Origin: Candidatus Peribacter sp.
GTDB lineage: Bacteria; Patescibacteriota; Gracilibacteria; Peribacterales; Peribacteraceae
DNA: 39,147 nt
Direction of reading: 5' to 3'
Assembly (NCBI GenBank): GCA_030647195.1
Contig: JAUSKD010000007.1
Coordinates: forward strand, 1-39,147
How positions within the stretch are numbered: position 1 is the first letter of the stretch; each line of letters starts with the position of its first letter. A model generated the notes under the pieces. The model searched no databases, had not been told where the DNA came from, and was given only the letters and a program-made list of their open reading frames with translations. Shown piece after piece: positions 24,033 to 24,691 of this stretch. The translations under genes and the position numbers were made by a program.

Positions 24033-24068
24033 AACAGAAGACAACTTCCTTCGCACTTGCGGAGGAAG
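24033..24068 (-). terminator. Attenuator terminator before thrS
   Basis: Minus strand: CTTCCT C CGCA / TGCG A AGGAAG, arms 24058-24068 and 24045-24055. This gives an 11-position stem with one C-A mismatch, and it is followed by the U-rich TTGTCTTCTGTT. It ends 15 bases before the thrS ATG. Its 5' arm is shared with the antiterminator. Confidence 0.7.
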
Positions 24069-24114
24069 GTAGTGGGATGAATGGTCAGCGCTACACCCCT
24101 TCCTCAGCAGGAAG
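24062..24114 (-). promoter_or_regulatory. Alternative pairings (segments 1-3) of the thrS attenuator
   Basis: Segment 1 is CTTCCT (24114-24109), which overlaps the last Thr codon of the leader peptide. It pairs with AGGAAG (24104-24099) around a GCTG loop. Segment 2, GAGGAAGG (24105-24098), alternatively pairs perfectly over eight bases with segment 3, CCTTCCTC (24069-24062). A further TAG/CTA pair can form after a bulge. The 2:3 pairing destroys the 3:4 terminator. Confidence 0.7.
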
Positions 24115-24148
24115 TCGTGGTAGTTGTCGTGGTGGTGCGCTGCGACAT
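24104..24148 (-). CDS. Threonine-rich leader peptide of thrS (14 aa)
   Basis: The open frame reads MSQRTTTTTTTTSC, stop UGA. All eight Thr residues are consecutive (24136-24113) and use all four ACN codons in mixed order, so it is not a simple DNA repeat. It starts 130 bases before thrS and ends inside segment 2 of the attenuator. Its presumed job is to sense charged tRNA-Thr: a ribosome stalled on the Thr codons covers segment 1 and lets the antiterminator form, while one reaching the stop codon covers segment 2 and lets the terminator form. No Shine-Dalgarno is visible. A 7-bp hairpin sits just upstream. Confidence 0.75.
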   Translation of the reverse strand: MSQRTTTTTTTTSC

Positions 24149-24578: not shown

Positions 24579-24611
24579 CAACTCCTGCTCTCCCAGCCAG
24601 ATCAAAGATGT

Positions 24612-24648
24612 AAAAAAACCGTCGCGAAGCGCTGGGTGGCTCTGACGG
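24612..24648 (-). terminator. T-tract terminator between dnaA and the 122-residue gene
   Basis: Minus strand: CCGTC (24648-24644) pairs GACGG (24623-24619), with a small CGC/GCG hairpin within, followed by seven T residues. The stem is short but the T-run is the best in the window. Confidence 0.5.
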
Positions 24649-24691
24649 GCCCCTGTGCTGGAGCGACACCACTTAAAGGGAAAGGATGGTC

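Follow-up and report, generated by a model that had tools for sequence, protein, structure and literature searches.

A predicted threonine leader-peptide attenuator upstream of the threonyl-tRNA synthetase gene in a Candidatus Peribacteraceae genome

We present comparative and structural evidence that the threonyl-tRNA synthetase gene (thrS) of a Candidatus Peribacteraceae genome (Patescibacteria) is very likely controlled by a ribosome-mediated transcription attenuator, with a predicted second promoter (P2) that would give basal mRNA bypassing it. The parts of this element, their conservation, their exclusive pairings and the dependence of the predicted folds on ribosome position were obtained by computation. 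Leader-peptide attenuation of thrS, as put forward in the initial annotation of this DNA, is strongly supported by the comparative evidence, namely the recurrence of the leader, the antiterminator statistics, the predicted fold flips and the shuffled-spacer controls. CPR bacteria are usually pictured as regulation-poor; a conserved amino-acid-sensing attenuator in a genome of this size (1.35 Mb) implies transcription-translation coupling and active tRNA-charging control in these bacteria.

The host genome comprises 57 contigs and is 98.6% complete, and its ThrRS is 94% identical to that of the closest named relative among the relatives compared. In the window, by which we mean the whole 39,147-nt stretch of DNA analyzed, the gene order on the minus strand is dnaA (26191-24728), an ORF without a family match (24605-24198), the leader, thrS (24018-22198; 606 aa, NCBIfam TIGR00418, E 2.7e-181) and lgt (22164-21241). 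Between dnaA and the unmatched ORF, the minus strand also carries a copy of an interspersed 65- to 75-nt repeat with a T-run at its end (24611-24688), which folds no better than its shuffles; similar copies occur in relatives (14 in G020, 7 in G004, 4 in G003 and 1 in G028), some of them just upstream of synthetase genes.

The leader ORF lies at 24148-24104 on the minus strand, where the initial annotation had placed a 14-codon threonine frame, and encodes MSQRTTTTTTTTSC followed by a stop codon; all coordinates given for the element proved right. Read from the sequence and conserved in relatives, the ORF contains eight consecutive Thr codons that would act as the sensor (ACC ACC ACG ACA ACT ACC ACG ACT; 24136-24113, minus strand). 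Runs of at least six consecutive ACN codons occur at only four loci in the genome, and the other three were ruled out as leaders, all lying inside long ORFs. Among the four sister leaders that can be aligned, the Thr block varies at five columns, every one of them a third codon position and none a first or second (p = 0.0013), a restriction that supports translation of the leader; we infer that the ORF is translated.

We compared 125 thrS upstream regions of the class, a nonrandom sample of best ThrRS matches picked to span families, and found a Thr-rich mini-ORF before thrS in 27 genomes, 25 of which pass a strict threshold of at least five Thr in nine residues. The next commonest residues in the same scan were Ser (8) and Arg (4), the antisense strand of the 125 regions held no Thr-rich mini-ORF, and 60 Patescibacteria outside the class yielded no Thr leader at the strict threshold. 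The leader precedes thrS in all five members of the genus and in many other genera; families f5, f6, f16, f21 and f23 also include leaders, as does, in a weak form, one f14 genome. Examples from relatives are MSQLCTTSTTTTTFR, MQQRPTTTGTTTTTS, MHRPLTTTATTTTSV, VHTLIVTTTTTTTSL, MKNTTTTTTTITE and VKTIATTTTTYTD. Absence of the Thr run from close relatives had been named at the outset as an observation that would count against attenuation, and the run was found in all four sister species as well as in many genera. Such recurrence before thrS across genera and families is more than chance would give. Within its own family the leader is present in 18 of 67 genomes, and since most of those examined (49/67) are without it, it is evolutionarily dispensable.

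Two mutually exclusive pairings follow the Thr codons, both present as originally claimed. Segment 2 (GAGGAAGG, 24105-24098), the antiterminator, begins inside the leader stop codon and pairs with segment 3 (CCTTCCTC, 24069-24062) in a duplex of -19.5 kcal/mol (predicted); segment 3 can instead pair with segment 4 in the 3:4 intrinsic terminator hairpin (24068-24045, predicted -11.3 kcal/mol), all on the minus strand. With one genome taken per genus (21 genera), the complementarity of segment 2 to the 5' arm of the terminator exceeded that of its own shuffles (Fisher p 1.5e-16), though Fisher's method takes genera as independent, which makes this and the other combined p-values rough. The terminator hairpin exceeded its shuffles as well, by a figure that is inflated because the best hairpin had been picked. 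Compensatory change in the stems had been expected, and the segments do differ in sequence between genera yet keep their pairing. The 1:2 hairpin (CTTCCT-GCTG-AGGAAG, 24114-24099, minus strand) is present in the window but weak across the 21 genera, where its excess over shuffles is marginal (Fisher p 0.02).

The terminator is followed by a U-rich tail (TTGTCTTCTGTT, 24044-24033, minus strand), which in this window (TTGTCTTCT) is imperfect. Two sister species, G003 and G004, have TTTTTT at this position, and G001 has GGGGGG and shows no flip. An imperfect U-tract would be compatible with translational attenuation, in which the alternative structures govern access to the thrS start and not termination, and a proteobacterial locus offers a parallel: in L081 (SZAS-39) a Thr mini-ORF (MSATTTTTTAAT) about 130 nt before thrS precedes a strong hairpin that has no U-tract, a possible case, in another phylum, of an independent Thr leader that may act on translation. 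We nevertheless regard a translational switch as very improbable in the present genome, given that terminators made of a hairpin and U-tract occur in nearly all leader-bearing relatives and that the pairing segments do not include the thrS start, at which there is no Shine-Dalgarno sequence that could be masked.

Folds were predicted with ribosome footprints modelled either at the leader stop codon or on the Thr codons. Across the 21 genera, the terminator probability averaged 0.94 for a ribosome at the stop versus 0.25 for one stalled on the Thr codons. In 18 genera the fold flipped, with the antiterminator favored when the ribosome was on the Thr codons and the terminator when it was at the stop; the three that did not flip are represented by G005, G006 and G174. 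Thermodynamic folding of the window's own leader, suggested as a check in the initial annotation, predicted the same switch (0.99 at the stop versus 0.23 stalled). When the spacers were shuffled, the terminator stayed high (mean 0.79 versus 0.23 observed) and the flip disappeared (Fisher p 6.5e-14; p = 0.059 for this window alone), from which it follows that the sequence itself is responsible for the flip. The whole leader region folds modestly better than its shuffles (z -1.4 to -1.7), which is what might be seen if a Thr-codon run happened to lie beside an ordinary terminator; so fortuitous a pairing is scarcely credible, however, as it is contradicted by conservation across genera and families, by the specificity for one amino acid, by the third-position-only variation, by the antiterminator statistics and by the shuffled-spacer control.

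Upstream of the leader, a predicted sigma70-type promoter, P1 (24186-24158, minus strand), consists of a -35 element (TTGTGG, 24186-24181), a 17-nt spacer and a -10 element (TACCGT, 24163-24158) that ends 9 nt before the leader ATG. Relatives have P1 at the same place and with the same spacing; in the window at least one other site scores higher than the aligned site. For 11 of 17 leaders, the -10 element of the best sigma70-like site within 360 bp ends 6 to 9 nt before the leader start, one further leader has its second-best site 10 nt before the start, and in G006, which has an in-frame ATG further upstream, the best site precedes that ATG by 7 nt. Placement of the -10 element some 6 to 10 nt before leader starts points to a leaderless leader mRNA, and the leader ORF is probably read from such a transcript. 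TAnnnT hexamers also stand 6 to 9 nt before several other gene starts in the window (e.g., 8600, 22164 and 28200), and few of its gene starts have a Shine-Dalgarno sequence, which suggests that this organism has many leaderless genes.

The predicted second promoter, P2 (24036-24028, minus strand), is an extended -10 element (TGtTACCCT) ending 9 nt before the thrS ATG. In 54 of 61 family genomes, an in-frame thrS ATG is preceded at 4 to 11 nt by a TAnnnT motif, mostly with an upstream TG, and the same motif is found in 14 of the 18 family genomes that bear the leader, compared to 8.7% of background ATGs. On this pattern a leaderless promoter of its own probably serves thrS from downstream of the terminator, a position that would leave only the P1 share under the control of the attenuator. 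The attenuator would then probably tune one of two thrS promoters, and part of thrS transcription may bypass it via P2. Transcription of thrS from a start downstream of 24060 had been named in the initial annotation as a finding at odds with attenuation; the predicted P2 fits such a start for part of the transcription, and P1 and the leader are conserved. A stronger version of the same idea is that thrS is expressed mainly from the leaderless P2, the upstream leader and terminator being of minor weight or in decay here. The wide occurrence of a P2-like extended -10 in the family, the imperfect U-tract here together with its loss in sister species G001, and the many relatives whose thrS has no leader at all would agree with this. 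We consider it unlikely, as the leader, the exclusive pairings and P1 are kept throughout the genus (five of five members), the Thr codons of the four members that can be aligned differing by silent changes alone, and as strong switching is predicted in this very genome.

Under the attenuation model that we favor, RNA polymerase would start from P1 at the leader ATG or no more than a few bases from it, and a ribosome would load on the 5' end of the leader without a Shine-Dalgarno site. Where charged tRNA-Thr is plentiful, the ribosome would reach the stop codon and cover segment 2, and the 3:4 terminator would form; where it is scarce, the ribosome would stall on the eight Thr codons, segments 2 and 3 would pair, and transcription would run on into thrS. 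P2 would meanwhile supply basal leaderless thrS mRNA irrespective of the switch. Both promoters would thus fire and expression would respond to threonine charging, low charged tRNA-Thr very probably leading to more ThrRS being made.

An Rfam scan of the window at gathering score returned two tRNA matches and no regulatory RNA, with no match to either the Thr_leader (RF00506) or the T-box (RF00230). The T-box core motif occurs in 6 of the 125 class genomes (families f9 and f11), and three of five such cores scanned sensitively match RF00230 below gathering score (E 3.7e-8, 0.0036 and 0.015); outside the class, 10 of 60 Patescibacteria have the core motif. The ThrRS proteins nearest the Peribacteria type outside Patescibacteria are from Anaerolineae (L069-L072, L075 and L076; Anaerolineae/Chloroflexi), where a T-box core often precedes thrS, the core of L070 matching RF00230 at E 2.9e-15, below gathering score. 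In six family genomes, in which gene starts are uncertain, no convincing cognate-rich leader was found before Ile, Leu, Val, Phe, Trp, Tyr or His synthetase matches, and the leader device seems to be specific to thrS in its own family. Separately, hairpin-like similar sequences lie upstream of a valyl/isoleucyl-type (PF00133) synthetase gene in several genera (L215, L217, L218 and L219; examples GTTCTAGAGGAACC and GGACCACGAGGATCC), without an Rfam match at gathering score. We tentatively propose, at somewhat less than even confidence, that in one CPR class leaderless Thr-leader attenuators replaced T-boxes before thrS, perhaps more than once, and that they sit on top of a constitutive leaderless promoter of thrS, so that very reduced genomes would use two promoters for this gene. 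With T-box and leader peptide, one class offers a natural example of two different sensors in front of a single gene, an example that includes leaderless initiation.

Several known systems resemble the element in part. The E. coli thr operon leader (RF00506) likewise uses Thr codons to sense charged tRNA-Thr through attenuation; it controls biosynthesis and uses Ile codons too, in both of which it differs from the window, where RF00506 has no match. T-boxes (RF00230) before thrS also sense tRNA-Thr charging and control thrS by antitermination, but they sense the tRNA directly, without a leader peptide. Similar in kind are the attenuators of synthetase genes, among them the leader-peptide attenuator of the pheST synthetase operon (pheM) in gammaproteobacteria. 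Attenuators have also been reported upstream of leuS and trpS in Streptomyces (PMC1262725), and His leaders precede hisS paralogues in bacilli, where they are swapped against T-boxes (PMC2965389). All of these share with the window a short ORF whose codons include those of the amino acid charged by the downstream product and an exclusive antiterminator and terminator; the window differs in its combination of thrS with Thr codons, its occurrence in Patescibacteria, its leaderless ORF and a second promoter between terminator and gene. In mycobacteria, leaderless poly-Cys short ORFs (Canestrari et al. 2020, cited in PMC9031893) are similar in their homopolymeric codon run and in downstream control by ribosome speed, whereas they are cysteine-responsive and described as regulating downstream translation (PMC9031893). 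The literature covered, largely open-access papers, contained nothing relevant on leader peptides or leaderless genes in Patescibacteria. The initial annotation knew of no leader-peptide control of thrS in CPR bacteria, and none was found for that group; a weak thrS leader is, however, listed elsewhere, in Streptomyces lividans, where thrL (MKRVRPFLETTPGFVPAR) has two Thr codons, is leaderless and shows no clear terminator (PMC8079986). The S. lividans thrL-thrS pair shares with the window a leader peptide before thrS and a leaderless transcript, and the window is set apart by up to eight Thr codons, a full attenuator and conservation over multiple genera. Attenuated synthetase genes are thus already known, and the attenuator described here is, as far as we found, new for thrS at such strength and for the phylum Patescibacteria.
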